Assembly (NCBI GenBank): GCA_963971425.1
Contig: OZ020515.1
Span: 38,545,198 to 38,609,197 of the forward strand
DNA from: Bryoerythrophyllum caledonicum
Taxonomy: Eukaryota > Streptophyta > Bryopsida > Pottiales > Pottiaceae
DNA: 64,000 nucleotides
Direction: 5' to 3'
This document shows positions 17,249-55,302 of this stretch, piece after piece. The translations under genes were made by a program, and so were the position numbers. The notes under the pieces are model-generated. The model worked only from the letters and a program-made list of their open reading frames with translations, searched no databases and was not told the origin of the DNA. Position 1 is the stretch's first letter, and every line of letters begins with the position of its first letter.

Positions 17249-17321
17249 CATGGGGCCGAGGACGTCCTCTGTCTGGACGACCGAACGTCATGGACGTTGA
17301 GCGTCTTGAGAACTCTACTAG

Positions 17322-19950
17322 GTATACATATGCTTTGTTTTGGTGTAGTATGGGGATTGGTTGACCACGGTAATTAATGTTAGAAGCTTGCATTTAGGGC
17401 TTTAAATGTAATGGGGTTCATTTTGGATTTATTTGGGCATCTAGTAGCAGCGCATTTTGGAAACTCCTACGTCCATACCAGTCCATTTATAATATCTATC
17501 AATTTTGTCAACTTGTGTTTGTAATGATTTTATTTTGTTAGTTATAGTAGCAAGGTCATTGGCGTAGGCGGCGGAGTTTATGGTGATTTGTGATGTACCA
17601 AAAGTGTATCCATTATTTCCTCGCTCTAGCCATCTAAGTAGTGGTTCTAAGAATATGATGAATAGGTATGGACTGAGGGTGTCTCCTTGTATAGTTCCTC
17701 TATGAATGGGGATAGGCTTAGTTTTACCAAAGTGCTCACCGGTGTAGTACGTAGATGATTGGGAGTAGATATTTCCAACTAGTGTGGTTGCATCTTTTGG
17801 GTACCCAATATCAGTCATAATTACCGCTAATAGTCGGGTGTGGTCTATAGAGCCAAAGGCATTTTTGAAGTCAACATATAGAATATATATGTCTTTATTT
17901 GTGAATCGTGCATCTTCTAGTGCCGCTATTATGGTTTGTATTTGTCTAGATGTATTTCTCTCTGCTCTAAATCCTTCTGACTATCGTGTAGGATTTTAAA
18001 CTTTTTACAATATGAGGATAATATTGAGGTAAGTGTACTGGTGTAGAGTTTATATATCGTGTTGGCTAATGCAATTGGTCTATGATTTGGTAGTATTGAA
18101 GGATCTCCTTTTTTATATATTAAGATTGTTGCACTTGTTTTCCATGAGGCTGGTATTTATTTTTGTTTATAACAATGGGAGAAGAATAAAAATAGTAATT
18201 TATGAAATCTTGGGGGCATGTTTTTGAGTATTGAGTTTGGTATCCGATTTGGCCATGAGGCTTTGTTATTTCCAAGGTTGCGGAGGCATGTGTCGTATAT
18301 GGCTCTGTTGAAGTATGTATAATGGAATTTCGAGTTCGCCTCGTTTGTCTAAGATAAATCCATCTAGATCATGCTATGGATATTGGCGTACTGCACATGT
18401 GCATTCGATTTAGTGTTGTGGTTGGTAGTTATATGTTGGTATTGTCGGTCTATTATTTTTTGTCTGTTGGTTAAATATTTCGTTTGCAATGTCTTCAGGG
18501 TTGGTTAAAATGTTATTATACTGGTCAGTGATACAATCTAGTGGTGGAGATTCGAATTTTTTAAAAACTTTCCTATTTATTTTCTTGGAGCTGATTTCGT
18601 ATAAATGTCTATAATTTGAGATGGCTTTTTTAATATTATCTTTGGAGTATTTTGTGATCATTTTTTGGGCTTGTATATTGGCGTTTTTTGCTATTAGTGC
18701 AATGTCTTTTATCCATGTATCATGGGGAAAGTCTGGGGGGTGGGGCAGGAATTTGGGTATGGTGCAAATTTAGTAATTTGTTACATATGAGGTGGTTTTG
18801 CCATTGTGGGTTATTTTTTACGATTCTAATAGTTTTTCGTATTATATGATATGTAGATAGGTGTTGTTTCCAAATTTTAGAAAGTTTGCGGGGTAGATAA
18901 CCACCTTGTTGAGTTGTTCGGTTTGTTATTTGTGGTATTGGTTGGGCTTTGCAAGTTTGTTCCGGTGTATCGGAGATATTTTTGGTAAGTGTATCTAGGG
19001 TGTGGCATGTTTCGTGCCATTGTGTTTGAGAGAGTTGGTTATTATTTTCAAGGGAGTTAATGAGGGAGTCAATTTGCATGGAATTTTCTTCAAAGAACTT
19101 TGTGTTGAATTTTCTATGTTATCTTTTGGGATGGGGTTGACTATGCGTTTAGTGGTATTATTTGTGGTTATAGGGATACGACTTATTAATATGTTGTTTG
19201 GGATGTGGAGTTGTATGGGCAAGTGATCCGAGTTGAGAATGATGTCTTTGTTTGTTGTGAAAGTGTATTGTGTATTGTTATTTGTATTTATATAGAAGCC
19301 GTCTATAAGGCTCCAATCACTATAGTTATAGCCTCTTTGTTTGGAGTATTGTGTATCTGTATGTATATAGGTGAAGTTTAGGTTATCTATAAAGTGGCGC
19401 CATTGGTAATCTATGGTTTGAGGGGGGGGGTGTTGTGATTTCCGTTTTGTCGTCCAATTAATGCTATGTCTCTTTTGAAGTCCCCACACAACATGTAAGT
19501 GTGATTAGGATTATGGTCCATTTGAGATGTGAATCATGTGATAGTGTTTTGTATGTCTGTAATAAATCTAGTATCTTTGGGGTGAGATGGCATATACATA
19601 TGAAAGATTAACCATGGCTGTAGTGGTTGATTGGTAATTCTAATTATTTGGAGGTAGGAGGATATGTGCATTGGAGTGGGAATTTTATTGATGTTGCCCG
19701 GGAAGGCATATTTTCTGTGTATTAGAGTAAGGAGACCACCGCGGCATGGTGTGTATGGTCTCCATTGTTGAATGCATCTTGTTAGTGCATGTGTGTTATT
19801 AAGAATAAGTTTATAGTCTTGGAATATGTTTTGTATGTATTTTGTGGATTTTGTGGCGGATATTTTTATTTCTTGGATGACTATGTTTGGATGGGTGGTA
19901 ATTACTAGGGCATATAGCATGTGTATTGGTGTGTGGATTTTTTTTTGGTG
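17322..19950 (-). pseudogene. LINE copy C: partial ORF2 (APE endonuclease and RT), decayed
   Basis: Diverged minus-strand copy of the ORF2 found in copies A and B. From N to C: ILYALVITTHPN-like start fused to VIQEIKISATKSTKYIQ (19.9 kb), CGDFKRDIALIG where GDFN is expected (about 19450), SDHLPIQLHIPNN (about 19220), then the RT with IQGDTLSPYLFIIFLEPLL (about 17690). The metal-binding motif reads AYANDLATI instead of AYADDL: an Asp codon has become AAT (17558-17560). About 150 codons between the N-terminal region and the endonuclease are deleted near 19878. Frameshifts and stops abound. It ends abruptly at 17322, just right of the gap, so the RNase H half is missing. Confidence 0.85.
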
Positions 19951-29967: not shown

Positions 29968-31714
29968 GAGAGGCACTACAGCCAACACATCACTCGAGGA
30001 GATGTCTGACAATGCACCCCAAGCATCCCAAGCAACCAGGAGAGACTTCTCCAACATTCAACTCAAGTTTCTCCAAGAATCCAAGGCAGTAGACATGAAG
30101 GTGGAGAGTACTTCAGAAACTTCCAAGAGGTCCACAGAAGCCCAAAAGGATAGTCCTTCTATTGGAGAAGCCCCAACCTCTACAAAGAAAGCCAGAGGTA
30201 ACTCTACATCCTTACTACAAGTCTCTATTCCAGACTTTTCCTCCTTTCATTTTTGGTTGGGTTTCTCCACCATGGAGAAACTCGCAATCGATGAGCAGCA
30301 AGAGCCTTTGTTTAGTGGAGAGAGCGTCTTGGACATGATTACTTGAGGAATGCCCAAGGAAGAAGCAGAGGAGGCTATTGGCGCCAAGATGGGGTATCCA
30401 AAAGTCCCACAAATTTTATACTCCCCTATACGAAGTGACAACATCGCGGGACAACATTATAATCTGACACATGTACAATTTGACATCCCCACCTCCCCTG
30501 AGATAGGTCTCTCTCTTGATTTTCAAGTGGCAATACATTTTGAACTACCACAACACCCTTTATATCATGAGGATGTGAGGAAGCTTACTATTGCTAGACT
30601 TAAACACATGAAGATATCCCTTGGCAAGAGTTTGATAGACCCCGTTGCAATCCTATGTAAGGGAGTCAAAAAACATGGCAAAAGCATATGGTCAGGAATT
30701 ATCAAGCTCCACCTCCTCAGGCCAGAGGTAGATGCCATTGCATTACTTAGAGGCACGAGGTATTTCATTTTGCACTTAGACCCGTTAGAACCAGCCTCGA
30801 GGGGGAAGGTATGCAAGACTTTTCATGCAGTGGCAAGGAAGAACTTGTCCGTGAAAATCAAGAGTGACAACCTTAAGGGGATGATTGCACACTCCCTCTT
30901 TCAGGATGTAGTAACCGATGGGTTTACAAGGAAGTTAGAGTTTGAGGTTACAGACGTTCAGAATATCCAAAACAAATCCCATGCCTTCATTGTAGCCCCA
31001 ACTCCACAACAGGCTAAAAAGTTTGAAGTTCATAGCATCACCACACGCCAGGAGATATTATGAGCAAAAGCTTCGAGCTCTGACACTCTATCAGCTATCG
31101 ATAGAGCAAAGAAAGACGCCCTCACGGTCACACTTTCTCACCTTCCCATACTAACCAGCGTGGCAAAAACCACGGAGGCCATTCAGAAGGTATTTGGGGA
31201 GAAATTGGTGTCTTTATGGTTCCATAAGCAGGAAGGGGGGAAACACAATGGAGGAGCCAATGTGCAACTCTAGAACCCCATCACTTATAGACAATTCTTG
31301 AACAAAACCTTCATGATAGGAAGGCACCAAGTGGAGATCTCACCTCACCGTCGTAGTCTGGATGGCGCGGATCCCCCTTCCCCCACTCTGGTGGAGAAAT
31401 GGAGATTTAGTGACATTAACAAGGCCCTTGTGAATACGGTGGCCTCCATATAAGCTACTCCCGCCCCTTCTGGCATCACTTGATCGGAGATGGCCTCCAT
31501 TATGGAGGCAAGAAACCAGAGATTGAGACAGGAGCTCACTACATTCCGCGAAGACATCATCAAAGAAACTAGGGCTTACACTAACAACATCACTCGAGAG
31601 CTCCAAGACAAGCTTGCCAACGTGGAGAGCCCGATGACCTCCACATTACTTGCAATGCAAGACATCACAAGATCCAAAGCCCCAGCCCTTGGAGACTCGT
31701 CAAACGTGGATTGA

Positions 31715-33749: not shown

Positions 33750-34878
33750 CTCGACCACCTGAAAAAAACCCCTCAAATTCCTCCTAATACCTCACACCGC
33801 CCTCCGCTGCATGATCCACGCCGCAACGTAGTACCCGAGGATGGCCAAGAAGAAGGAGCAAAACGGTTTACTTCTTGGTCTTCTTTGTCTATTGGTGTTG
33901 GTCTTCTTGGTCTTCTTGGTCCACCGGGAGCGGCGGACGGACAGACACTGACGCCTGTTATAGTAGTAGATAGATGCAGCCTCCTCTATCATAGTAAATT
34001 GTGTTCACCCCCCACCCTCTATTTGTTCTTATTACAAGTTTATACTACTTTATTCACTAAGATACATCTTGTCATTTATTTCTACTACTACATCAATATC
34101 TACCTACTCCCACGCATATTGCATCATCTTATTCTCTATCTCACTAAAAGTCTATTGCCTAAATATCTTGTATAGATTAGTTATCTTCCTCCCATCTCTA
34201 AAACCTCAATTTGTTATTAGACACTCTATTTTCTACATATATGCTACAAACACACCTAGAAGTGAGACACGAGAGGCATATATTACTTTCACTCTATGGA
34301 TTAATGCACACCTCCATTATTTATGGAACGATACTCCAACTACATATATGTACGCCTCTTACAAAAACTCTTAGAACACACACTTCCTTCGGGAGAATAC
34401 ATACCAACCACATAAACCACAGACCAATCCAAGACAAACACATAGAACCTAGAAAGATATCTCTACTTCAAACATGCACAATATAAACAAAAACTCATAC
34501 CACTTTACACTCACTACCATCATACAACGACTTATATCTCCTTTGCTACAAACAAACCTCCCTACAACCACAAACAAAAGCACAAAAACATACATATACA
34601 CAAACACGCACAATGTCATACACAAACCCACCAACCCAAAACACCACATACACAAATATACCACATATACACACAAAACTCAAGATAATTACACCATAAC
34701 CACCACCCCACACACCAAAAACACAAACAAAGACATACTTACAACAAGCTCCACAATCAAAAACACACACATAGTCACAAATAAAAATACTAAAAACAAA
34801 AAAACAATAACCAAACAAAAACCCATACATAACCCAATAAATCCAAAAAAACACATTAAACCCCTATACTATAGAATC

Positions 34879-34920
34879 CTATTACTACTAAGCGGAGATA
34901 TAGAAACCAACCCGGGACCC
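34879..34920 (+). other. 2A-like ribosome-skipping motif in ORF2 of copy A
   Basis: Encodes LLLLSGDIETNPGP, an exact fit to the 2A consensus D-(V/I)-E-x-N-P-G-P with the usual hydrophobic run before it. In 2A peptides the ribosome fails to join the last Gly and Pro, releasing the upstream peptide and continuing with Pro. Here it would separate the low-complexity leader from the ORF2 enzymes. Seen also in copy B, so it is a family trait. Activity is inferred. Confidence 0.85.
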
Positions 34921-35559
34921 ATGCCTAATATACTAAAAAAACATCCCATCACACATAGGAAAAATGCCAAAACATACTTTATACCAAACACCATAAAACT
35001 ACAACCAGAATACAGACACATCACTCAAACATTTGCACCATTCCTTAAAACATCACATATACTACATCAACTACACAATATAATACACCCAAACCTTGCC
35101 CAATACATACAACAGAAAGATACGCACCCATCCACACACATCTTATATGTTCTAGCAATCACCATCCACCCAAATATAGACGAATGCAACCGTCTCTTAA
35201 ACCCACAAAACCCAAACATAACTACATGGGCCAACATACTATCAAGAACTTTATCAAACCTACAAAACCCACCCAAAAGACATATTGATACCCCACACCC
35301 CTATACAAAATTTCTTGCAGAAAACCAAAACATCATAAACCACGGAAACTCAATACACAATGAACTATACAAATTCATACACTGTCAAATTACACCCCCC
35401 TCAAGTAACACAATAAAACAAAAATTTTCCTACCTCCCTAACAGTCTAATAAATGAATCAATAAGATATTTTGACCCCTTACCAGAGTATACCCACCCCA
35501 CCTCTCCAACCTCTTATCTCCCTACACAAAACCGAAATATTAGTCCAAATAATGAAAGC

Positions 35560-36330
35560 GCAACCATAATCACATGGAATGCGGCCTCTCTAAACACTGC
35601 ACTACCTAGTTTACAAGATCTAATCACACACACCAACACAACACCAGCAGTCGTAGTTATACAAGAAACAAAAATATCAGCCACAAAATCCACAAAATAT
35701 ATAAAAAAACATATTTCAAGATTACAAACTCATTTTTAATAATACACACATACTAACAAGATGCATTCAACAACGAAGGCCATACACACCAGGCCGCGGA
35801 GGCCTCCTTACACTAATACACAAAAAATATGCCTTTCTTGGTAACATCAAAAAAATCTCTACCCCAATGAACATATCTCCCTACCTTCAAATCATTCAAA
35901 TCGCCAATCAACCTCTTCAACCATGGTTAATCTTCCACATGTATATGCCTTCTCACACCGAAGATACTAGATATATTATAGACATACAAAACACCATTAC
36001 ATCTCAAATGAACAATCACACTTACATGTTATGTAGGGACTTCAATAGAGACATAGCATTAATTGGTCGACAAAATGGTAACCAAAAAACCCCCCTCAAA
36101 CCACAGATTACCAATGGCGCTACTTCACAAAAAACCTAAACTACACTTACATAAATACTGACACACAATATTCTAGACAAGGTGGATATAACTACAGTGA
36201 CTGGAGTTTAATAGACAACTTTTACATAAATACAAATAATATTACACAATACATGTCTACAAGAAACAAAGACACTATTCTCAACTCAGATCACTCGCGT
36301 ATACAACTCCACATCCCATATAACATACTA
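35560..36330 (+). other. APE-type endonuclease domain of copy A ORF2
   Basis: Nicks target DNA to prime reverse transcription. Motifs in order: ITWNAASLN (Asn), VVIQETKIS (catalytic Glu), YMPSHTED, LCRDFNRDIALIG and LNSDHSRIQLHI. The usual GDFN is RDFN and SDHxP is SDHSR here, whereas copy B keeps CGDFNRDI and SDHSPI, so copy A has picked up damaging changes. A frameshift at about 35705 splits the domain. Confidence 0.8.
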
Positions 36331-36987
36331 ATTAGTCCCACCCCTATAACCACAAAAAATAATAATATCCGTATACTAAATCCCATCCCAAAAGACAACC
36401 TAGAAACATTCAACACAATTTTTTGAAGAAAACTCCATGCATATCGGCTCTCTTATAAACATACTGGAAAACAACAACCAACTATCTCAAACACAATGGC
36501 AAGAAACATGTCACGCCCTAGATAAAATTGTCAAAAATATCTCCAAAACATTAGAACATACTTGCAAAGCACAACCAATACCACAAATGACAAACCGCAC
36601 AACACAACAAGGTGGGTATTTACCCCGAAAACTCTCAAAAAAATGGAAACAACACCTAGCCGCATACCACACAATACGAAAAACTATCAGAATTGTAAAA
36701 AACAACCCACAATGGCGCAATCACCCCATATGCAACAAATTACTAACCATACACCACACCCAAATCCCCGTTCCACCTCCCCCGGACCAACCCCACGATA
36801 CATGGATAAAAGACATTGCGCTAATCGCAAAAAATGCTAATATACAAGTAAGGGGAATAACTACAAAATACTCAAAAGATAACATTAAAAAAGCCATCTC
36901 AAAATACAAACAACTATATGAAACTAGCCCCAAAAAAAAATAGAAAAGTTTTTAAAAAATCCAAATTCCCACCATTAGATTGTATCA

Positions 36988-39894
36988 TTTGACCAATACA
37001 ATAATATCCTAACTAGCCCCGAAGACATCGCAAACGAAATATACAATCAACAAACAAAAAATAATAGACCCACAGTACCAACATGCAACCACCAACAACA
37101 ACACCCAACGGAATGTACATGTGCAGTACGCCAATACCCATGGCATGATCTAGACGGTTTTATCCTAAACAAACGAGGCAAACCAGAAACTCCACTACAC
37201 ACATACTTTAATAGAACCATATACGATACATGTCTCTGCAACCTCGGAAACAACAAAGCCCCTGGGCCAGATCGTATACCGAACTCAATACTAAATAACA
37301 TGCCTCCAAGATTTCATAAAATGTTATCTCTATTCTTTTCTCAATGCTACAAACAAAAACAAATACCAAACTCATGGAAAACAAGTGCAACAATCTTACT
37401 CTATAAAAAAGGAGATCCCTCAATGCGATCGAACCACAGGCCAATTGCATTAGCCAACACAATATATAAACTCTACACTAGTACACTTACATCAATACTA
37501 TCCTCATATGGTGAAAAGTTTAAAATCCTACACGATAGTCAAGAAGGATTTAGAGCAGAAAGAAGTACCTCTCGACAAATACAAACCATAATAGCAGCAC
37601 TAGAAGACGCAAGATTCACTAATCAAGACATATGCATTCTATATATTGACTTCAAAAACGCCTTTGGCTCTATAGACCACGCTAGACTACTAGCAATAAT
37701 GGCGGATATCGGATACCCAAATGATGTAATTACACTAATTGGTAATATCTACTCTCAATCATCTACTCACTACATTGAAGAGCACTTTGGAAAAACTAAA
37801 CCCATCCCTATTCATAGAAGAACCATACAAGGAGACACACTTAGCCCATATCTCTTCATTATATTTTTAGAACCGCTTCTTAGATGGCTAGAAAGAGGCA
37901 AAAATGGATACACTTTTGGTACATCACAAGTCACCATAAACTCCGCCGCCTACGCCGATGACCTCACTGCCATAACTAACAAAATAAAATCATTACAAAC
38001 ACAAATTGATAAAATAGATAGATATTGCAAATGGACCGGTATGGACGTAGGCGTCCAAAAATGCGCTGCTACGGGGTGCCCAAATAAATCCAAAATAAAT
38101 CCAACCACATTTGAAGCACTAATGCAAGCTTCCAACATCAACTACCGGGGTCAACCAATCCCCATACTACATCAAAATGAAGCATATGTATACCTTGGAA
38201 CAAACCTTGTCCCCTCTCTAAAATGGAAAATCCAAATCCATACCACAACCACTAAACTCATTAAACAATGCAAAGAATTATCAACATGCCCAGCCACTAT
38301 GAAACAAAAAATTAAAATGATTGACACCGTAATACGCCCAGGTATTGCATACAGCTTCTACGCGGTACCATATTCCATACCGGCTATCAAAAAACTTGAT
38401 CAAAAGATTACAAGCATACAAAAAACCATTTGTGGAATGCCAAAATGCATGTCAAACGCGTTAACCCAACTACCACATAACTTATTCGGACTAGAAGCCT
38501 TCTCCCTCAAGAATGCCTATCTCAGGTGTATAGAGGAACAACTACAAAACGCTCTAAATGATAAAGGAAGGCTTGGAAAAATATATAACGGTCTAACCCA
38601 CTATGTTCTTGCCCAACACGGCAGGGCCGAACATATACCAAGCATAAAAAAGACGAATTGCACAAGATCACCAATATCACGTACCTTCTTCTTACTAAAA
38701 CACGTAGCAAAAGTCCACTTAAAAAGTTCCATCTCCAACTTTCTTATAGAACCAACCACACTAGAGAAAACTTGGACTCTAGAAACACAAAACCATAATA
38801 CACTTAACATACAACTATCTAAAAAATTACTACAAAAACTCCTATCAAAAAACATCTACGAACTAAAACAAATCTCCCTTCCCAATGGAACGCACATCAT
38901 GAACAATGAAGAGTTCAAAACCTACCACTTCACCCCATCAAAATTAATTAAAAGTGCCCTCAAAATTGCAAGACAACTCTTTTGCCACCCAACATACCCC
39001 CTCTCATACAATATTCATACAAATACAAATATATACTCACATACACTTAAAGACTCATACATCACTATAAACAACGACATCATCCCAACAAATATCCCCC
39101 CACCACAAATACACCCCTCCCACTCCCACCCACATCACCCCCGCCCCCCAAACCACATCCTCAAAAACCCCTCCACATATCCTATTGCCAACATCATACA
39201 TCACGAATATAAGGAAAACCAGATAATAACCAAATTAAAAACAACTACAACAGATACCTATGTCAATGGAATCACAACAACAACACCTACAATAAATGGC
39301 TCCCCCAAAGAAACATCTTCCCAAGACACAACCAAAAACGCCATCACACATAATATCAATAAACTAACACAATATTATCAAAAAATCCAACACAAGTTCT
39401 ACACCAAAATTATTCAAGCACATCACCCACAAAATCAATCCCAAGACACAAGGTCCATCACTCCACCCATAATAATCCCCCTACTAAACATTTACACAAC
39501 AGAATGTAACCCCGAAAATGACATTCTTACTACATCCAACACAATTAAAATAGACAAAGACCAAGCACACTTATATGAAGAAGATGGGCGACACCTCTTT
39601 ACCATCAAAATCAATAGACTCATATGGCTCTGGAACCAATACAATACTAAACTACAAACCCCTACAAACATTGAACCAATAACCCAATCATTTGAAACCA
39701 AAGTCATTTGGCTATACCAAAGATACAAATATAGAATACCAAAAAATAACCCCCTTAAACACACACAATATACAATACCGGGTACCCACACCGATACTAA
39801 ACTCATTAATCTCAACATTCAACATCCAACACTCATACTTTTCCTCCCCCGTCACATGCCCCACCAAACTCAACAAATTTTACTCCCCCTTTGA
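36988..39894 (+). other. Reverse transcriptase domain of copy A ORF2
   Basis: One open frame holds all core motifs: NNKAPGPDRIPNSIL (about 37250), NHRPIALANTIYKLY, SQEGFRAERST, ILYIDFKNAFGSIDH (motif A), IQGDTLSPYLFIIFLEPLL (motif B) and AYADDLTAI (motif C, TAC-GCC-GAT-GAC at 37951-37962). The catalytic aspartates are present. After the thumb region (about 38500) the frame continues through a long Thr/Asn/His-rich linker to 39894. The first ATG at 37300 is not the real start; the frame is open from 36988. Confidence 0.9.
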
Positions 39895-40215
39895 AAGAGA
39901 TAAAATATTTGGATCACTAGGGAGAGCTTTAGACTACAAATGGATAGGCAATGGAATAGCTCACCCTCACAATGAAGAAGAAACACATCAAGCACTACAC
40001 TGGGCAAGCCTCACGGCCAAAAATGACCCAAACCACACCTCCACCCTAATCATAACCCCGACAAAAACTGGTATCAAAACCCTAACCCACATTCGGGCCC
40101 CTTTCCTGACTCACACATCATTGTACTATTCGAAGCGGACACAATAACATATGAAGAACCCACTATCCCACCCGAACAAAATAAACCTAGGCTTGAACCA
40201 ACTACAATACAAATA
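39836..40215 (+). other. PCIF1-methyltransferase-like segment between RT and RNase H
   Basis: A distinct domain in another frame: KFYSPFERDKIFGSLGRALD, then WIGNGIAHPHNEEETHQAL, then STLIITP, continuing after a frameshift near 40110 as DSHIIVLFEADTITYEEP. The spacing of FGSxGxxxD, a GNG/GSF-like turn, a short P-containing motif, an acidic helix and a hydrophobic strand ending in P is what I know from the Rossmann methyltransferase core of PCIF1-type cap-adenosine methylases. The catalytic NPPF is replaced by AHPH, so activity is doubtful. Inference from pattern memory; a profile search is needed. Confidence 0.38.
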
Positions 40216-40469
40216 CTATGTGTCCATCACCAAAACAAAACAATGGGAACCTTAGAACAACTCACCACGCTCACATCCATAGCCAAAAGCCTGAACATAA
40301 ACCGAATACACACAAACATTACCTTGCCCACACCCCCCAAACACCAGTAAACCGTAGCAAAAAATGGTCTAAACTAGAATACAATAACAACACATTAAAC
40401 TATTCCATGACAAATCCCCCTCTCTCTAATTACCACACATATACACACCCAAAATATGACCCCATACAT

Positions 40470-40890
40470 AATTACTACACAGATGGATCCTTTAAAGAAC
40501 CAACAGAAAGTAGCCTTGGACATAGGCAGAGAGAAAAAGCTGGATATGGCATATACAATCCCAACAAAGAAATCAAACTAGCCAAAAGACTCCACGGACT
40601 TCAAAACATCCTCAGAGCAGAGATTATGACCATACACAGAACACTCCAAATCATCAACACAAAATATGCCAATGAACCCGCACATATTTTTACGGATTGC
40701 ATCAATGTCCTATGTCTACTAAACACACAAATAACACACCCCACTCTCCACAATAGCCACCCCAACAAAATAACACTCATGTCCATGGTTCAAATGCTCC
40801 AATATCGAACACAACCTACTACACTCCATAAAGTCAGAGCCCACGCTAATATAGAAGAAAATGAACAAGCCAATAAACTAGCCAAAGAAG
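40470..40890 (+). other. RNase H domain of copy A ORF2
   Basis: Removes RNA from the RNA-DNA hybrid. Motifs: YYTDGSF (first Asp, 40478-40492 region), LRAEIMTIHRTL (Glu), IFTDCINVLCLL (Asp), KVRAHANIEENEQANKLAKE. The last normally reads ADKLAKE; here Asp is Asn, so the fourth metal ligand is lost. Good match to the RNase H of I-group and algal LINEs. Confidence 0.82.
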
Positions 40891-41302
40891 GAAGAGAAAA
40901 ATCACATAAAAATGCCAAAGACCCACATGAGCATGCACATGCCACCCCATACTACTTCCAAAAAGAGGATTGGCCTTCCAAAGATGACACCTCGGACAAA
41001 GGCCCGGTCCGATTTTTAGGAAAATATCTCAAAAAACAAAACACATACAATGACATGGACATGATCTCAGAAAAATTTCTTAACATAGAAAAATGGACCA
41101 GCAATAATAACATAGACAATGAATTGTCTACAAACTTTTGGAAAAATCCCACCATTACCGATTCACAGGTTACATGCCTTATCAAATTACGCACTGGCCA
41201 ATATATGGGGAATGCCCGTAAACAATTCTTCTTCGGAATAGAACGCTTCCCATCCATAATATGCCCCATATGTACCTCTACAGACCTTGACACATGGCTA
41301 CA

Positions 41303-42144
41303 TCATACTACTAAAATCACAATCCGCGTAGTGAACCACGCAACGATCAATCGCGCAGTCAACCGTGGAGTGAACTATAGGAACGATGCAATCAACCGTG
41401 CAGTTAATTGCGCAGCCAACCACGCAGTGAACCATGTTACCTTTTTTTAATATAGTTTGTAATATAAAAACTACTTTCATATGGTTGGACTAATGCGTTG
41501 CAAAGCATTAGCTTGAGTTTTTGGGTGTCACAAATTTGCATTTGTGAGTTGCAATTTGTACTCTTGATTACAAGTTTGACGTTCAAAATATTTTTTGAGT
41601 TGAGCACTAAAAGATTGAATTGTAAATTATGAGTTGTAAACTTGGAGTGAAAAAGTTGTGAAGTTGGAGTTGTGATCTTGGAGGTTGGCATACAAAGTTG
41701 GAGTTGCAAAATTGCATATTCGAGTTGTGAAGATTAAAATTACAAGTTTTGAGGTGAGATTGCAAGTTTTGAGATTGTAATTGCAAATTGAGTTTGTGGG
41801 TGTGTGAAACTGAGATTGTAATTGCAAGTTGAGTTTGTGGGTGTGCAAAATTTGCATTTGTGTGTTGCAATTTGTGCTTATCCAAAATAAATTTGAAACT
41901 CTTGATTACAAATTTGACATTCATATCATTTTTGAAATTCCATGTTAAAATGCAAAAAATCTAAAACCTAATTTATTTTTTCTATTCTATTCTATTACAT
42001 TATTAAAATTCATGCATAGGTTTCAAAGACATATTAATATTTTATGTAGATTGTTGTTACCTTTCTTTTTTTATGTTTTGTGATATATAAACTAAATTAA
42101 AAATGGTTGAACTAATGCGTTGCAAAGCAAGCACCAACTACTAG
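41303..42144 (+). mobile_element. Nonautonomous Helitron inserted in ORF2
   Basis: Starts TCATACTACTAAAATCAC and ends with hairpin GCGTTGCAAAGCAAGC (42117-42132), eight bases, then CTAG (42141-42144). It is preceded by A (41302) and followed by T (42145), the exact A-T target of Helitrons, with no duplication. Taking it out restores an in-frame TWLHVLLKC across the site. No gene inside; it holds short repeats of CGCAGTCAACCGTG (41340-41440) and an internal near-copy of the 3' hairpin region at about 41480-41512. Confidence 0.88.
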
Positions 42145-42778
42145 TGTCTTACTAAAATGCCAAAACCACCACATACACTCCCTCATTGTTAAAAGGCACA
42201 ACAAAGCAGTATGGAAAATCCGAAAACTAATCACCTCACATAACAAATCCCGATGTTTCATACCCATGAATGCCGGCACTTTCAATAACAACCCACAAGA
42301 AAACACGGTTCCACCTTGGCTACTCCCATGTACATGTGCAACTCAACGATGCCAATATAATGCTAAATTTAAACCCAACATACTTTGCGTAAAAGGCCTA
42401 CCATACAACAACCCACCACCCATCCACATAGACTCAAACTATACCATCCAATTTATTGAATTCACGTACTATAATGGCAGATTCTCACCAGAAACAATAG
42501 AAAATAAAATAAATAAATATCAACCCCTCATCGAAGACATAAAAAACCTTGGATGGAAAATCGACCCCCTCATAGTCATCACGGCTGGTGCCCGCGCCAC
42601 AACCTATATCCCATCCATAAACATCCTTGAAGATACGTTCAAAATACCCATGGACAAAATTAAACATACCTTCAAAAATATCAACACCATCGCAATCCAA
42701 CATGCTATGTCCATACTTTTACATAAACAAAAAATTGAGAATAACCAAACCCTCCCAGATCCAAATGACACACCATAA
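42145..42778 (+). other. C-terminal Cys/His region of copy A ORF2
   Basis: Continues ORF2 right of the Helitron: KCQNHHIHSLIVKRHNKAVW and on to a stop at 42778. With CPICTSTDLDTWLH left of the insertion it forms a Cys-x2-Cys...His...Cys...His-x-x-x-RHN pattern common at the end of LINE ORF2 proteins, probably for nucleic-acid binding. The remaining roughly 170 residues (PPWLLPCTCATQRCQYNAKF and on) are unfamiliar. Confidence 0.7.
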
Positions 42779-43160
42779 AAAGTCCAACCTCCCCATAGCA
42801 CCACTCATTTCCTCTCCTTCCTCCCTCCCCCCCTAGTCCTTTTGTCTTTTTTTTTTCTTTTTTTTTAAATTTCCTTTTCTTTCTCCCCGCTCCCTTGTCT
42901 TGATTGTGGTTCACCTCTGTTATGACTTGCATCTTTATGGTTACTTGTTACATAGTGTTTACACTTGAGAGGGGGAAGTAGCTCCATACTACTAACTCCT
43001 TGCCTGGTGGGCACGGTCTTAGTGGTGGTGCAAACAAACACTTTATTCACGCCAGTCCCCTTCGGGAATCGGCGTTCTTCTTCTTCTTCTGACACTTTTT
43101 CTAATATACCATACACAATGGTGACTTTCGGCACCTCCGTGCCAAACAAATTATTATTCT
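42779..43160 (+). other. 3' UTR of LINE copy A with terminal stem-loop
   Basis: A strongly pyrimidine-rich stretch (42790-42900) follows the stop. At 43050-43074 the sequence folds as CGCC/GGCG with an inner TCCC/GGGA stem and CTTC loop, followed by five TTC units. Such a hairpin near the 3' end may be what the reverse transcriptase recognises. The exact 3' end is not certain. Confidence 0.5.
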
Positions 43161-43526: not shown

Positions 43527-44468
43527 AAGGAACTTAACCCCTAAAGGACCAGAGTCTCCTTCGGGGGGATTTCTGATTTTGGGCAGGTTCCTAAAATTAA
43601 AAAAAAAATCCTTTTTCTCTGAAATTTTTATTCTAGATTGCCTATGATAAGAGCTTCGTGGACATATTTTTATTTTATTTTTTGGATTTGTGGTTTGAAA
43701 GTTAGTACCACTTAAAGCAAAAAGTGGGGAGACCGGGCACCTCCAAAATTTTTGACAAAAGTTTCTATTGACATAGAGATTTTTCACACATATAAAGAAT
43801 ATTTCCTTTTCTGGAAATTTTCAAAAAAAAATCTTGTCTTTAGTGTAAAAAGGCATTATATTCCAAGTCAAACATTTTCACACATTGTCGGGCAACGGGG
43901 GAAAAAAACTTCATCTTCTCGACATAAAACCTAGAGATCTTCATATTTTTCACTTTTTATTTTTTCAAAAACAATATATGGTGCAAACCTTCTTATTGAC
44001 CGTTTGGATTATCATTTGAATACATACGTAGTTCACAAAAAAATAAAACGTGAAATCACAATTTTTGAACCTCCACTCCTTGCACACTTGTTTTGAATAT
44101 GCTACACCCCTTTTTTACCTCTAAAAATTGGTGTGCTCGGAAATAACATCATGCTTAAGACAATGGTATAGGATTTAGACCTTGTACAATGCAAAAATTT
44201 GATACAAAGTGAAGTCAAAGTCTGCTGGTCTACTCAACGCAGGGAAGAAAATGAACCATTGTTTTGACTTCAAACACTAAAATCTATCAATCCGTGCGGT
44301 GGATTGCAACCAAAATTTTATGGCATGTTTATATAGATGTCTATTTTAAGATCTTATGGTTGAAAATCCAAAATTCACTTTAAGATGTGATTTTCATGTC
44401 TCTTTTTGGCAGTGGCAGTTTTGGACTGGTTTTAGAGCGAAAGTGGTCGTGTTCCTTTAGGGGTTAAA
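43527..44468. mobile_element. Nonautonomous element, AACCCCTAAAGG family, copy 1
   Basis: Ends are TTAACCCCTAAAGGACCAG (left) and GTTCCTTTAGGGGTTAA (right), an imperfect inverted pair. The interior (for example CAAGTCAAACATTTTCACAC and TACCTCTAAAAATTGGTGT) is found in the same order, reversed, at 54289-55230. No coding frame. The superfamily is unassigned because no clear target duplication was seen. Confidence 0.65.
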
Positions 44469-44815: not shown

Positions 44816-47475
44816 GTTAGTCAGCCGGATGGCTGAGTAAGGAGCTCCGAGATTGTGGTGAGGGAGAGGTTGGACTTAGCTCCTAGGGAGAAGACTGCAA
44901 GCATTGAGAAGTGGCTGGACTCGGTGGGAGCCCTTGTTTGTCTTGGATCTAGGAGAGGGGATTTTTGCAAGAAACAGAGAGTTGTTGGAATAGGCTCAAA
45001 CGTCTAGATCTGAAAGGTGCAAGCTGCTGAACGAGAATATTGTCCAGATCTATGTAGGAAGTGTGTCCTGAAAGCAAGCTCCTTAGTGTTGGTACACAGA
45101 TCTTACTTACTGCATCATTCACAACTTTAGCTGATCAGATCTAGACTAGGATGCTCAGATCTGTTCAAAACCTCCATTAAGCCTTCCTCTCGCACGACCC
45201 ACACACTCAAACAAGTCAAGATTGTTGTCAAGAATACAACATTGTTGTCCAGCAGCGACCAGCCACTCCTACAGGCTATACCTAAACTTCTCTCTTCATT
45301 CACTTGTTTTTACATCTTAATACTTACAAAGTTTTCTATCATCAAAAATGATTGCATTACTTGTGTAGACTGTGCTCTCATAACTATACAAAGACAGGGA
45401 AAGATCGAACCGCACCAAGTAAGAGGAAGCAACCAAATCAAGCCAAGAACAACAAAAGGCATACAACGCATACACTATCAGGTCAGCCCGCACGTAGTCC
45501 AATACTGCATAATTTTCACAACACTTCTTATTAACTTTGCAGTATGCCAAGATTTACAAACACAAAGTGGTAGCACGAGGTTCATACAAAGCTACACCCA
45601 AACACAGGTTAGATCCACACAACCTCCCACGACTCTCTCTCTTTCCTTCATACTGCATGTGGTAGCTCCTGGTGCATATGTAGCAGATACCACCGCAAGT
45701 CCGAAAGTAAGCTTCAACAGACCAGGTCCAACTGCACCTGCACAGTGAAGAACATACAACATCAGAAGACGTATAAGTCAAAGACCGGATCTCAAGGAAG
45801 GACCACAACGGCTACCAAAATTTTTAAAAAGAAGACACTAGTAGTTATTACTACTGGTGAATATATCGACAACCTCAGAAGGTGCGACAAAGTTAATGTA
45901 GGCGGAGAGACCCAAGCAGAACATTCACAAGAATTAGACAAGATGCTGCTACACAGAAGACATTCGACCCTGACATTACAGACATACCGAAGCACACACA
46001 ACATCTAAGAAAATGAAGACAAACGCAATTACCACAGACGACAGTCATAGCTGCAGAGACATCAGAACAACGACCCGAAGACAAGACAATCTCCAAGAGC
46101 ACGACGCCCCACCGACAGACTAGACCAAGTTCAAGACAACGACCCTCCCCAAAAAATTCGAGCTCCACACACACAAGGCAGTGTACAGACCCCCTCCGAA
46201 AAACAACACACAGACCAAGACCGAGCTCGCAACCTCCTCCTGCGACCCCATGCTCAAAGCCTGCGACCCCACGTCCGAAGCCTCCAACCCCCATCCTCGA
46301 CCAACATCAACCCTAGCTCCGCGCACCAACAACCCAAAATCCAGGTACAGGAACACAACCCGACGCCCCAAAACAAGACAACAACTGAACAAGAGATTCA
46401 CTCCAAAAAACCAAGACGATCTACCTCCTCCACACGACGTACTATACCAACCCCAAGACTTTACATCAGGTACGCAATCCTATTACTAAACTCTCATGTA
46501 GGACTCGACATTTGCCAAGGAAGCGCCAAGGCTGGACAACAAAAACCACCACCAAACGTCGACAACACATTCAAGATACAAGAATCTCCACCAACAATAC
46601 AAAGAAACGAGAGCTCCGCCGTCCCTCACCAACGACAACACACACGGCAGGGAGTGCAACATCGACTAACTCAAGACACACAAGAAGACAACTATCCCAC
46701 CAGACCCATCTGCAACATACTAGAGCACAAAGGTAAGCACATTTCTTACACCGCCATTAGTGAAGAAACTACAGGTGAGAGGAAAATCCCAAGGGCAGCC
46801 GAAGACTGGGAACCCTCAGACGAAGGCCACAGACTACAATTCAGACGCAGTATAGATATACAAGAACCCGCAAGAAGACACCGGAGGAGCCTCAACACAA
46901 AGCCAGCACGCACAAGATCGCACCCACGAAACGGACTCGGGAGCAAGAGTCAAGGACTCAGATAGACGAGCCACAGGTTGGAAGCAGTGAAGGCGAGCCA
47001 CAGGTTGGAAGTAGTGAAGGCGAGCCACAGGTCGGAAGTGGCAAAGTAGAGCACAAGGCAAGAGACGAAAGACGGGAAGGAGGGTAGTAAGGGAAGAGTA
47101 GGGCTGCCGAAGACAGGGAGGGACCCTCTAGAGGGTAGCCCAGGGCTGTTGTAGACCAGGAAGGAAGCTCTCGAGGGAAGCCCAGGGCTCTCGAATGGCA
47201 CCAAGAAGTAGAAGACAAGAGACGAAGGAGAAGCCCACGCACAGAAGGCAGTACGCCCTCAACGAGCCCAAAAGACCCGTCTTATACCCAGCACCTCCCT
47301 ACACAAATGGAGTAAATTACCCAAGCCATTATGCTAGGCCGCCGATGGTGAGCAGCCATCAGGCACTGCAATCCACATCAAGTCACCTCGAGCACACATC
47401 GTCCATTTTTTCCAACTCCAAGTAAGTCTCCTCACACTCCATCACGTTCTTTCACATCCCTAGAACAATCTAATC
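44816..47475 (+). other. Probable 5' region of LINE copy B
   Basis: A/C-rich sense strand like that upstream of copy A ORF1. Short open frames at 45242-45748, 46181-46489 and 47195-47425 show no recognisable domain. Three 27-bp tandem units (GCGAGCCACAGGTTGGAAG) lie at 46966-47046, and a 42-bp imperfect duplication ending GCCCAGGGCT lies at 47109-47190. These could act as promoter-like repeats of the 5' UTR, as in some LINEs, but that is inference. Confidence 0.45.
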
Positions 47476-49303
47476 ATGAGCAGCAGAAGAGGAATCGTAT
47501 TTGACGAAGTGATGGACGTTGACGACATGATGGTGCATCATGTAGCTGCCCCAAAAGAAAAAGGTTCGAGGATAAGTACGGACGAAACCGGCAGCAGTAA
47601 GAAGAGCAAGAACAACGAAGGAGACAAAGGTAAGTCTACTAAACCACTACCACTAACTTCAAACCTAAATCTCTGGCTAGGTTTTGAAGTTATGGAGCGC
47701 ATCGCGATGGATGAAGGAGTGGAAGCCCCTACAAGTGACGAAACCAAAGAAGACAAGATGTCTAGGGGTTTCAAAGCCAACGAAGCCGAAGAAGTAATGG
47801 AGGCCAGAGAGGCCTTCCCACGAATCCCCCAACTTCTTTACCCTTGCAAGAGAAGAGGAGCACAAGAGCAACACTTCAACATCACCCAAATCCCGCAAGA
47901 CATCAAAACCAACGAGGCCACAGGTTTGGCCTTGGACTTCCATGTTGCTATCTTTTTCGAACCTCCCACCAATATTATGTTGCATGATGATGTATACAAC
48001 ACAATAACTAAAAGACTTGAACAAATGAACATCAAATTAGGCACATGTCTAATCGACCCAATTTACATTCAATGTCATAGTGTCAAAAGGGGAGGTCAAA
48101 AGGGAGTATGGACGGGAATGTTTAAACTACACCTACTAATCCCCAACACGGATGGTCTCATGTTGCTAAAAGGCCTTAGGCCTTTCATACTTGTACTAGA
48201 TAACCATAAGATCATTGGTAAAGTATGTAAGACCTATCACCATACGGCTAACTCTACTAACCTCTCCGTGCGCATTAGAAGTGACTCCTTGATAGGTATC
48301 CCGGCCCACCAATTATTCGTGGACATCCTTCACAATAGTTTCAAGCGAGGCCAAGACTTTGAAATCACCGGAGTACAAAAAGTTGCAAGTGACCCTTATG
48401 CCTTCATCTCCACCACCACCCCGCAACAAGCTTCAAAGATCCAACTCCGACACGTCACCACTCAACACGAAGTCCTTCAAGCGAAGAAAACCTTCACCGG
48501 AGGCCGCATGACACCCGAAACAAAGGCAAAAAAGGATGCCCTCACTCTCACCTTATCTTCCTTGCCTATTCTCATGAGTGTTGTTGACACCACTAATGCC
48601 ATCCACAAAATCCTAGGAATTGATAACACTAGGAGCATATGGTTCCACAAAGAAAATGGTGAAAGGCATAATGGGAGTGCAAATGTGGAGTGTTCTAACC
48701 CTATTATGTATAGGAAGTTTGTGAAGAAGACAATCAAAATTGGTGATAACCACGTGGACTTTGCCCCACACCGGAGGCCGCATGATACCCGAAACAAAGG
48801 CAAAAAAGGATGCCCTCACTCTCACCTTATCTCCCTTGCCTATTCTCATGAGTGTTGTTGACACCACTAATGCCATCCACAAAATCCTAGGAATTGATAA
48901 CACTAGGAGCATATGGTTCCACAAAGAAAATGGTAAAAGGCATAATGGGAGTGCAAATGTGGAGTGTTCTAACCCTATTATGTATAGGAAGTTCGTGAAG
49001 AAGACAATCAAAATTGGTGATAACCACGTGGACTTTGCCCCACACCGGAGGAGCTTGGTAGGAGTGGAACCTCCAACTCAAGAACAAGTTGAAGGTTTTG
49101 GGTTCAATGACATCAACACTGCCATGGTCAATACCGTTGCAACATTCAAGATTCAAGACACCCCCACCTCCACCAACACCAACGTCACGAAGAAAGACCT
49201 AGAAGATGCATTGAAAGAAAATAACAAGAAGATGAGGAGAGAGAATAGAGAATACACGGATAAACTCCACGAAGAACTTGTTGCACAAATGGAGAGCATA
49301 TAA
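47476..49303 (+). pseudogene. LINE copy B, ORF1, frame broken by tandem duplication
   Basis: Starts MSSRRGIVFDEVMDVDDMM, followed by an acidic/basic low-complexity part, then the conserved domain (LNLWLGFEVMERIAMDE, LDFHVAIFFEPP, GVWTGMFKLHLL, GKVCKTYH, TTPQQASKI) and a coiled-coil-like tail (KENNKKMRRENREYTDKLHE) ending at 49303. It aligns along its length with copy A. The strand-helix-strand look of the centre would suit an RRM-like nucleic-acid-binding fold, but this is a guess. The frame stops at 48861 because of a 274-bp tandem duplication; the second frame (48740-49303) is exactly the one expected if one duplicate is ignored. Otherwise intact, so younger than copy A ORF1. Confidence 0.75.
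48495..49042. repeat. 274-bp tandem duplication in ORF1 of copy B
   Basis: Two copies, 48495-48768 and 48769-49042, differ at only about four sites. The word CACCGGAGG stands at the start of each copy and just after the second, so the event may have used this microhomology. Since 274 is not a multiple of three, the reading frame shifts. Confidence 0.92.
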
Positions 49304-49539
49304 AACTCCATGCAAGCCACCATCGAAGCCATGAGAGCCATCAAAGGGAGAGTAAAACCAAGACAAATCGAAGACACACCGCCAAACATGTGAAGACCAA
49401 AGACCACACGGTAAAATATAATTACCATGACATTAGTGACAACTATCTACACCATAAACTATCAGAAATATACAAGTACAAAAATATGCTATACCAACAC
49501 TGTATTACTCATTATACTCAATACAAACATCATATTATA

Positions 49540-50060
49540 TATTCATTTACATATCCACATACATATCCACATACATATACACATATATATATACACACAC
49601 ATACACATATATATATACGCATACACACCTACACACACACATAAAGACATACACACACATATACAAACATACACACATACATACACACAAACAAACCCAC
49701 ATATATACACTCGCATAAATACAAATAAAAAATACACAAAGACACACCCACATACACACATAATAGAACACACGAACACATACATATACAAATATACATA
49801 CACTTACATATACCAACAAAAACAACTACATACAAATCCACATACATACACACACATAAATACATTCAAACAAACACACAAACATCCATACACCCACACA
49901 CATATAAAAAAACATAAAATAGAACCTCAAATATGCATAAACACTCACTCACACAAACACACCCACACAACTAAAGACACACACAAGCCCAAACTCACAC
50001 ATAATATATATATATACATACACACACACAAAAACACTCACACATTCACATTCACAAACT
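49540..50060 (+). repeat. ACAC/ACAT low-complexity tract before ORF2 of copy B
   Basis: Sense strand built almost wholly of A and C with T (ACATATCCACATACATAT and alike). Open frames within it (Thr/His/Ile/Tyr repeats, and their Val/Cys-rich reverse) are artefacts of composition. It occupies the position between ORF1 and ORF2. Confidence 0.85.
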
Positions 50061-50174
50061 AAAACCTACACATATAAAAACTCAAAGACACATACAAAGC
50101 AATATCAAAAACACATATATAAACGAACCCAAAAAAAAAGCCATAATAAATATACATCCGAACACAACAACTAA

Positions 50175-52130
50175 ACCCACAAACAAAAAAAAACACCAAA
50201 AAAACCCACAAACAAAAATTACATACATACACAAACAAAAATACTAAAACAAAAAACCAAAAAAACAACAAAGAAATATCCAAAGTACACACACAAATCA
50301 ACAATACAAAATCAACATATCAAACCCTTACACTATAAAAACTTATTAATGTTAAGCGCAGATGTAGAAACCAACCCGGGACCCATGCCCAATGTACTAA
50401 AAAGACACCCCACAATACATAAGAAAAACGCCAAAAGCTACTTTATACCAAATACCATAAAACTACAACCGGAATACAAACATATTGCCAGAACATTTGC
50501 ACCCCTCTTAAAAAACACGCACACATTACACCAACTATACAACACAACACACCCGGACATTGCCCAATATATACAACAAAAAAGTACGCACCTACCCACA
50601 CACATATTATACGCCCTAGTAATTACCATCCACCCCAACCCCAACGAATGTAACAGATTTATAGGAATACAAAACCCAAATATAACTACCTGGACTAACA
50701 CACTATTACAAACCCTATCAAACTTACAAAACCCGCCCGAAAGACACATTAATATTCCACACCCTTACACAACATTTCTTGAAAATAACTTAAACATCAT
50801 AAACCACGACTCATCAATAAATAAAGAACTATATGATTTTATACACAACCAAAATACACCCCCATCAAATGACATGATAAAAAAAAATTCCCCTACCTCC
50901 CAAACACAATCATAAATGAGTCACTAAAATGCCTCAACCTCCTCCCGGAATACACACACCCCCTCCACCGCCGAACCACATCCCACCACAAAACCATAAC
51001 CCACATACGAACAACATCACAAGCATAATGACATGGAACGCCTTATCCCTCAACATCGCGCTCCCAAACTTACAAAACATCGTTATACACACTAATACAC
51101 CACCGGCATTCATAGTCATACAAGAAACAAAAATATCGGCCACAAAATCCACAAAATACGTACAAAGACTATTTCCAGACTACAAACTTATCTTCAATAA
51201 TACACATACCCTCACACGATGCATACAACAAAGAAGACCATACACACCGGGCCGAGGGGGCCTCCTCACTCTCATACACAAAAATTATGCCTTTCTAGGC
51301 AATGTCAAAAAAATTCCCACCTCTATGAACATATCCCCATACCTCCAAACTATAGAAATTTCCAACCATCCACTACAACCATGGCTAATCCACCACATAT
51401 ACATGCCATCCCACCCCGAAGACATTAGACTCATAGACGACATCAAAACTAACATCACCACCCATATCACCAACAACCCCAACCACAACCACATCCTATG
51501 TGGTGACTTCAACAGAGACATTGCCCTCATAGGTAGACAAAACGGAAACCAACATACACCACCACAAATGACAGACCTACAATGGAAACAATTTACAGAA
51601 AAACCTAAATTTTAACTACATACCACAAACACTACATACTCTAGACAAGGAGGATACAACTATAGCGACTGGAGCCTAATCGATGGATTCTACATCCGTG
51701 CAGCCAACTACAATACATTTACTTCTACAATAAACAATAACATTCACTTGAATTCCGATCACTCACCAATACAACTCCACATCCCTAACAACACACTCAC
51801 AAACCGCACACCAACCACCATAAACAATAACCACATACGTATCCTCAACCCCATCCTACAAACCAACATAGAACTATTTAACATAAAATTCTTCGAGAAA
51901 AACTCATTACAAATTGACTCCCTAATCAACGTAATAGAATCCAACCACCTCTCCCAAACACAATGGCAAGAAACCTGTCACACCCTAGACATCCTCATCA
52001 ACAACATATCCAATACAATTGAACAAACCTGCATAGCCCAACCCATACCACAAATGACAAATCGAACAGCACAACAAGGTGGATATTTACCTCGCAAACT
52101 ATCTAAAACATGGAAACAACCATTGTCACT
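50175..52130 (+). pseudogene. LINE copy B, ORF2 N-terminal part with 2A and APE, 3' truncated
   Basis: The frame is open from 50175 without an ATG until 50349, inside the 2A motif. It continues MPNVLKRHP and IPNTIKLQPEY as in copy A, then the endonuclease: MTWNALSLNIAL, FIVIQETKISATK, HPEDIRLIDD, LCGDFNRDIALIG, SDHSPIQLHIPNN. Catalytic motifs are better kept than in copy A. Frameshifts lie near 50885 and at about 51605 (an extra A). Homology ends at about 52118-52130 (RKLSKTWKQ), where unrelated sequence begins, so the RT and everything after are missing. Loss of the 3' end is not the usual LINE 5' truncation and implies later deletion or recombination. Confidence 0.82.
50343..50384 (+). other. 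2A-like ribosome-skipping motif in ORF2 of copy B
   Basis: Encodes LLMLSADVETNPGP followed by MPN, again a full match to the 2A consensus. The flanking KPL-Y- residues also match copy A. The only in-frame ATG upstream of the enzymes is the Met within this motif (50349), so in this copy the released peptide would be tiny unless initiation is non-AUG. Confidence 0.85.
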
Positions 52131-54234: not shown

Positions 54235-55302
54235 ATGGACGGGCGGTAACGGGGAGTGAGGCGGGGGAAGCAAGTTGGTTGGGCTTAACCCAGTTTCTGT
54301 GACAATTTCAGGCCATAAACACTTCAAAACTATTGGTTTTAGTGGGATGAGTAAGGAAGAAGAGTAAAACCTTTATATCTATTTTGAACCGTAGGATCTC
54401 AGTTAAACTTGTTAAATACCAAGATCACAAAATTTCACAAACTTTGACCGCACAGATTGTAAGAATATAGTGTTTGAAGCAGAGAAAAGGGCTCATTTTC
54501 TTCCCTGCATTGAATGGATCAACAGACTTTGACTTCACTTGGTGTCAAATGTTTGCACTACACAAGGTCTAAATCAATTTCCATCATGTTAAGGATGATA
54601 CTAGTTCCTTGTACACCAATTTTTAGAGGTAGAGGAGGGATGTAGCATATTCAAAAAAATTGGGCAAGTTGTGTAGGTTTAGTAATTGTCAATTCACATT
54701 ATATTTTTTGTGAACTTCATATGTTTTAGATTGATAATCTGAACGGTCAACGCAAAGGTTCACACCACATAATGTTGAGGAAAAAATAAAAAAGTGAAAA
54801 ATAAGAAGATCTCTATGTTTAATGTCAAAAAGAAGAAGTTTTTTGGTACCATGCCCAACAATGTGTGACAAGGTGTGAAAATGTTTGACTTGGGTTAATA
54901 TGCTATTTCTCACTAAAGACAAGATATTTTTTTTAGACAATATGAAAGGAAATAATACTATTATCAAGTATTGAAAATCTCACATTCAATAGAGTGTCTT
55001 AGCAAAAGTTTTTGGAGGTACCCGACGTGCCCGCTCTCCCCATTTGAATTTCAAAACCCTATGAAGTTATCATTAATTTTCGGATTTAAGAAAAAATGAA
55101 CTCTTGCAAAGCTTTTAGTAATGTCCATCTTCAATAAAAGTTTCAAAAAAAATGTTTTAAATTGACACGGTAGGAACCTGCCCAAACCTTCTAGAGTCCC
55201 CTGTGGAGACTCTTGGAAATTTAGAGGTTAAGGGGCTTGGAACCTCGACGGGTGATAATGAGGACTGAGGCGAGGGGGAAGCAAGTCGGTTGGGCTTAAG
55301 AG
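54235..55302. mobile_element. Nonautonomous element, AACCCCTAAAGG family, copy 2 (inverted)
   Basis: Body about 54289-55230 matches 43527-44468 in reverse orientation along its length (shared words include TACCTCTAAAAATTGGTGT and CAAGTCAAACATTTTCACAC on the minus strand), at roughly three-quarters identity by eye. About 54-bp imperfect direct repeats (GGCGGGGGAAGCAAGTTGG and GGCGAGGGGGAAGCAAGTC type) flank it at 54235-54288 and 55249-55302. They are longer than any normal target duplication, so they may belong to the element or to a separate repeat. Confidence 0.6.

Follow-up and report, generated by a model that had tools for sequence, protein, structure and literature searches.

LINEs that encode a 2A peptide are known from trypanosomes and animals. 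Heras et al. (2006) reportedly found a 2A in the non-LTR retrotransposon L1Tc of Trypanosoma cruzi, and Odon et al. (2013) are said to have described 2A-bearing APE-type LINEs of multicellular organisms. A 2026 survey presents natural StopGo as mostly a viral device that cells seldom use, and it reports no natural use by plant viruses (PMC12846837).

The window considered here, a stretch of 64,000 nucleotides, contains two copies (A and B) of a LINE family in which a 2A motif precedes the enzymes encoded by ORF2. The element is an APE-type LINE composed of ORF1, an A/C-rich leader, the 2A motif, and ORF2 with endonuclease, reverse transcriptase (RT), and RNase H. Judging from sequence comparison, we consider it likely that the motif acts as a functional StopGo (2A) signal at the ORF2 start of this high-copy family in a land plant.

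Architecture of the element and its copies in the window

In copy A, LLLLSGDIETNPGP is encoded by in-frame codons at 34879–34920 (+) within the open frame 34453–35739 (+). The core occupies 34897–34920 and is followed immediately by an ATG (34921–34923, +), which is found in 21/21 copies compared. The complete 2A consensus with a hydrophobic lead-in that the first-pass annotation had pointed out is thus present in frame at this place. The second LINE copy, copy B, carries LLMLSADVETNPGP at 50343–50384 (+), with the core at 50361–50384. Both belong to a family whose motif has the StopGo/2A core (D/G/C/N)(V/I)ExNPGP. In the window, the relaxed core pattern GAYNTNGARNNNAAYCCNGGNCC matches at two places, 34897 and 50361, compared with no match in 100 shuffles. 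A stricter core pattern, with Thr at the variable place, matches at 1505 sites (772 forward and 733 reverse) in the whole genome of 437,360,962 bases on 894 contigs, and the same pattern read backwards gives 0 + 0 sites. The 2A motif of this LINE family is real and conserved.

On the 3′ side of the motif, copy A has RVT_1 (2.8e-29) and RNase_H (3.1e-11) and copy B has Exo_endo_phos (9.3e-7); an endonuclease and then a LINE-type RT is the arrangement of an APE-type LINE. In PDB, the RT part is matched best by R2 elements, whereas the endonuclease has weak matches to exonuclease III (0.0035). The motif had been placed just before the endonuclease half; the endonuclease is indeed downstream, but it becomes recognizable only from ~220 codons past the motif.

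Copy A starts with a decayed ORF1 at 30179–31714 (+), which has stops at 30344–30346 and 31061–31063 and ends at the family-type TGA at 31712–31714, and its A/C-rich leader is open in the 2A frame at 34453–34896 (+). On the other side of the motif lie the N-terminal part of ORF2 with the endonuclease region (34924–36931, +), broken by a stop at 35737–35739 and by frame breaks, the RT part with RVT_1 (36979–39894, +), and the RNase H part (40197–41315, +), which is followed by an insertion to ~42150 whose bounds were drawn by eye. The C-terminal part of ORF2 past the insertion (42116–42778, +) was assigned by position only. The 3′ terminus carries a hairpin at 43049–43077 (+), which has a UUCG loop and precedes a run of TTC repeats; this hairpin region can be aligned in five other copies. 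The assignment of the copy A motif to the ORF2 of a LINE is borne out by the downstream RVT_1 and RNase_H; with its stop, later frame breaks, and insertion, however, this ORF2 is broken, and copy A is therefore dead.

Copy B consists of ORF1 (47464–49393, +; family-type TGA at 49391–49393), an A/C-rich leader (49394–50342, +), and the N-terminal part of ORF2 with the endonuclease (50385–52128, +), where it is 3′ truncated. Its ORF1 contains a tandem duplication of 274 bp at 48495–49042, with 99% identity, and the copy is flanked by inverted repeats at 44038–44300 and 54447–54709 that are 79% complementary. A third fragment of the same family, 5′ truncated and without the 2A region, lies at 17319–19884 (−).

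Copies A and B each have an ORF1, and an upstream ORF1 was located by tblastn in 17/20 own-genome copies taken around motif sites; the same search found none within the 4 kb examined upstream in L012, L016, and L028. ORF1 could not be assigned convincingly to any Pfam family, and searching PDB by profile returned just two trimeric-adhesin matches, with E values of 0.27 and 0.44. By eye, ORF1 appears to have RRM-like repeats and a coiled coil.

As read from its genes, the host is a land plant and probably a bryophyte, in keeping with the plant-genome setting given by the first-pass annotation. The gene at 61092–62747 belongs to the OVATE family; among its 11 database matches, the sole named relative is an OVATE-domain protein of Physcomitrium patens, with 65% identity over 16% of the query. 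The SBP family, which is plant-specific to our knowledge, has 18 matches in the genome compared with none in 14 control genomes. The window also harbors a Tc1/mariner-type transposase (HTH_Tnp_Tc3_2, DDE_3) in a single open frame at 57966–58976; mariner-like elements close to fungal ones have been reported for P. patens (PMC7466625).

Conservation of the motif and its lead-in

The 20 main copies were found with the core, Thr at its variable place, as the search pattern, and the core's own pN/pS of 0 is therefore no evidence of conservation. Copies selected by their RT were obtained instead by searching the same genome at the protein level (the best 105 scored of 5274 candidates). On contig C1, a motif site is present 2322–2340 nt upstream in 8/8 RT-selected copies. 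On other contigs, the full core is present in 7/10, 1/10 has NPGL, and 2/10 have no 2A at that place, so that the full core is found in 15/18 RT-selected copies examined. The motif is thus anything but absent from the full-length members of the family, the outcome named in advance as telling against it. Open frames of at least 3000 codons are found in 46/105 of the RT matches, and 32/105 share an identical score and an identical open frame length of 3087 codons, as expected of recent spread.

The lead-in, whose positions lie outside the search pattern, was compared in 21 copies, i.e., 22 minus the too divergent L028. Positions −6 to −3 are Leu or Ile in 19 to 21 of the 21 copies, Lys is found at −8 and Gly at −1 in 19/21 each, and (G/C/S)G stands ahead of the core Asp in 19/21; copy B has A ahead of D. 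The pN/pS of the lead-in, taken from four related copies, is 0.17 compared with 0.75 for the preceding leader and likewise 0.75 for the opening 92 codons of ORF2, the latter two values being inflated by indels in this ungapped comparison. The family lead-in is reminiscent of the LLLLSG-like class in being L-rich with a G before D, whereas the residue after Glu is Thr in the LINE family and Ser is preferred in the published L-rich classes (PMC12846837). By this resemblance, the upstream context of the LINE 2A would be of the permissive type.

Hydrophobic 2A sequences that double as signal sequences are known and work in plant cells (PMC4981915). By analogy with sea-urchin NLR proteins, the lead-in and 2A could serve chiefly in protein targeting, with skipping being incomplete. 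However, the lead-in often sits behind a long leader and is then not N-terminal, and nothing was seen that points to a secretory route for a LINE enzyme; we regard a targeting role as highly improbable.

Relatives in the database were collected with the ORF2 N-terminus, scoring the 8000 candidates that share most words with it, and a 2A core is present in 19 among 105 proteins matched. An anchor just 3′ of the motif matches 19 proteins, 18 of them with upstream residues, and NPGP is retained in 18/18. The core is canonical in 14 of these anchored relatives; the remainder have DIH (P0029 and P0032) or DIQ (P0012 and P0074). For the core Glu position, the survey gives His as >95% active and cites activities of 56% or 26% for Gln (PMC12846837). 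Departures from Glu in the relatives are limited to residues published as active or partly active.

This limit bears on whether the peptide is a structural part of the ORF2p N-terminus that merely resembles a 2A. Such a part would fit the observation that MPN and some of the next residues after the 2A are likewise conserved in the 21 copies, but it is at odds with a canonical core preceded by a lead-in of a published active type and with relatives that depart only to active or partly active residues, and we think it quite unlikely.

Additional 2A-like sequences were seen in several members. L012, L019, L039, and L040 have a second, upstream 2A or a remnant of one (GGDMETNPRP, GGDINTRPN, and GGELEINPGP), and in P0032 the reading frame contains an additional, canonical core at a more upstream position.

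The leader and the end of ORF1

ORF1 and the 2A are separated by an A/C-rich, repeat-rich, low-complexity stretch, the leader, which measures 0.3 to 1.2 kb in 11/18 copies and 1.5 to 3.2 kb in 7/18, a count that leaves out L021, where ORF1 is continuous into the 2A. In the 300 nt before the lead-in, the 21 copies together have 20 stops in the 2A frame compared with 122 and 114 in the other two frames, and the 2A frame is strictly the lowest in stops in 15/21 copies. Over 600 nt, the counts are 75 in the 2A frame and 201 and 218 in the others; the first 600 nt of ORF2, used as a control, give 38, 270, and 217. Because stops are depleted in the 2A frame only, the leader looks translated, and we infer that it is. 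In the long copies, the 2A appears to lie in frame between the stop-depleted leader upstream and the open ORF2 downstream. L039, a young copy of the 3087-codon type, has 739 open codons before the 2A and ~2348 from the core onward. If ORF2 is of equal length in the other long-frame copies, it would be preceded by a leader with ~700 to 1400 open codons in the 2A frame.

An ATG in the open frame ahead of the core is present in 9/22 copies, and in copy B the only one is within the lead-in. With no in-frame ATG within the open leader in 13/22 copies, the leader is unlike an ordinary AUG-started ORF, and a single Met-started leader ORF was ruled out. Release of the Thr/Asn/Lys-rich leader peptide proposed in the first-pass annotation is consistent with a scarcity of stops confined to the 2A frame, but this peptide would not be the product of an ordinary AUG-started ORF.

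Translation of ORF2 could instead begin at the ATG right after NPGP, the 2A region being untranslated or vestigial. The invariance of this ATG and the scarcity of in-frame leader ATGs would both be accommodated in this way. A start only at this position was nevertheless judged unlikely, given that the lead-in is under amino-acid constraint (seen in its pN/pS), that upstream stops are scarce in the 2A frame only, and that NPGP is retained in all 18 anchored relatives with upstream residues; we take such a start to be very unlikely.

Pfam gave no convincing family for the leader. Several database proteins (P0009, P0018, P0022, and others) have a recurring leader peptide like TASAYRPRHK, roughly 80–100 residues before the 2A, and in P0001 this peptide starts with Met. 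The leader region of L012 contains an antisense scrap of the LINE 3′ end, and similar scraps were noted on visual inspection of L014 and L022.

The upstream ORF1, with a −1 frame open across its stop, had no place in the first-pass annotation. At 35/35 ORF1 ends examined (15/15 and 20/20), the −1 frame extends farther than the +1 frame before it meets a stop, giving the overlapping −1 frame expected of −1 programmed ribosomal frameshifting. In the first 15 copies, the −1 and +1 frames are open for between 12 vs 4 codons (L018) and 919 vs 11 codons (L040). At the 20 further ends, which were taken from the best 89 scored of 3759 ORF1-search candidates and are partly close kin, no stop interrupts the −1 frame before the slice ends in 20/20, and the +1 frame closes within 5 to 22 codons. 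The open −1 frame starts at most 7 codons before the ORF1 stop in 9/15 copies.

A heptamer, G-YCA-AAC, recurs 0 to 2 codons before the ORF1 stop. It reads GTCAAAC in copy A (31699–31705, +; a putative shift site two codons before the stop) and GCCAAAC in copy B (49381–49387, +; one codon before the stop). The pattern is exact in 18/20 further ends and off by one base in the remaining two, and its position is constant while the codon that follows varies. Departures among the 15 copies are GUUAAAC (L026), AUCAAAA (L025), GCCAAAA (L023), and GUCUAAC (L011). GUUAAAC is an arterivirus slip site; in our literature search on that site, the string was absent from the papers matched, and no paper was found with both “slippery sequence” and GUCAAAC. 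Among database ORF1s, 16/49 have PN or SN near their C-terminus with only one or two residues after it, and many others are cut short.

The −1 frame open at all 35 ends together with the recurrent heptamer suggests that ribosomes may reach the leader by shifting to the −1 frame. In L010, L024, and L040, the −1 frame runs uninterrupted into the 2A frame (the link from L040 to its RT being made by coordinate arithmetic), and the ORF1/RT pair C2:24615461 and C2:24623536 has a −1 relation by coordinates. In L017, ORF1 passes its usual end into LVDLKDYK..., similar to the −1-frame LVDYKDYK... of L042, and in L021 ORF1, a polyglutamine stretch, the 2A, and ORF2 lie in one frame as a natural fusion. 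Of the 15 copies, 7 have the 2A frame at −1 relative to ORF1 (L040 by coordinates), 6 have it at +1, and 2 at 0, a mixture that presumably stems from leader indels; only the uninterrupted leaders of L010, L024, and L040 therefore speak clearly. The heptamer does not fit the standard X XXY YYZ slippery site. Folding 3′ of the heptamer in 12 sequences gave z values of −3.3 for L010, −1.7 for L024, and −1.1 or weaker for the other ten, and a codon-position test of the −1 leader showed no third-position excess of changes; neither lent support to the frameshift, and the leader pN/pS of 0.75 in four copies counts against it. That ribosomes shift to the −1 frame close to the ORF1 stop and pass on into the leader is plausible in our view, with a little less than an even chance.

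The 2A could equally well work behind a leader that is entered by termination-reinitiation, by an in-frame AUG, or by a non-AUG start, an alternative that concerns the entry step alone. Open-frame ATGs do precede the core in some copies, the heptamer is off the standard slip site and has no consistent structure downstream, and the young copy L039 lacks an ORF1 in the 3.0 kb preceding its 2A, so that an ORF1 shift would not be available to it there. Against entry without a frameshift stand the start of the open −1 frame shortly before the ORF1 stop in 9/15 copies and the heptamer that stays in place as the next codon varies, and no consistent near-cognate start was seen there by eye. For that step, we give entry by one of these routes close to an even chance.

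Proposed expression of ORF2 and comparison with known systems

We favor a StopGo signal that very probably works in this land-plant LINE family, a reading drawn from comparative data. It is supported by the retention of the motif in copies and relatives picked without regard to it, by the leader that is open in the 2A frame alone, and by the long open copies. Ribosomes would translate the in-frame, low-complexity leader up to the 2A; at NPG|P the leader would be released and the ribosome would continue. We infer skipping at this site, by which ORF2p (endonuclease, RT, and RNase H) would become a separate protein beginning with Pro-Met-Pro-Asn, whatever precedes it. The leader would then be a spacer that needs only an open frame and a terminal 2A. 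If ribosomes enter from ORF1 by the frameshift, the ORF1 message would give rise to a little ORF2p through two recoding events in series; L021, as an in-frame ORF1-2A-ORF2 fusion, would bypass the first of them. Reinitiation, or an independent AUG or non-AUG start, would be the other way into the leader. The complete series, in which a −1 frameshift at the ORF1 end leads into an AUG-poor, expendable, and fast-changing leader and StopGo then frees ORF2p, is a serious possibility that we nonetheless hold to be somewhat improbable.

In an RT tree (one FastTree, read without support values), the family forms its own branch. The nearest other branch includes the green-algal protein P0051 (Pleodorina starrii), and no canonical 2A core was found in the proteins of that branch, which may stop short of the N-terminus. 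The plant L1-like proteins P0096 (Sesamum), P0102 (Arachis), and P0105 (Sesamum) are on another branch; in this one tree, the RT of the family does not group with known plant L1-like proteins. Away from the family, too, lie P0089, P0099, P0103, and P0104, four distant proteins that bear a 2A. Since P0089 shares a deep branch with the plant L1-like proteins of Arachis and Sesamum, another plant-side case of 2A use is possible.

No 2A of a plant retrotransposon was found among the literature matches as listed by title and abstract opening, a scope outside which the eukaryotic 2A surveys (Luke 2014, Rao 2025, Odon 2013) lie. What may be new is StopGo in a LINE of a land plant, with a possible second recoding step, which, if true, might explain in a new way how ORF2 is translated when the LINE message opens with ORF1. 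The 1505 core sites in one land-plant genome, together with the relatives, are a source of plant-adapted 2A sequences, and the copies and relatives provide a natural variant series of DIE, DIH, and DIQ.

Like the LINEs attributed to Odon et al. (2013), the element described here is an APE-type LINE that encodes a 2A. In contrast to L1Tc of T. cruzi, the present family is found in another host kingdom, has a separate ORF1 and a long A/C-rich leader, and possibly enters that leader in the −1 frame. With the LLLLSG-like StopGo class it has in common the L-rich lead-in, the G before D, and the core; that class belongs to RNA viruses, whereas the motif described here belongs to a plant retrotransposon (PMC12846837).
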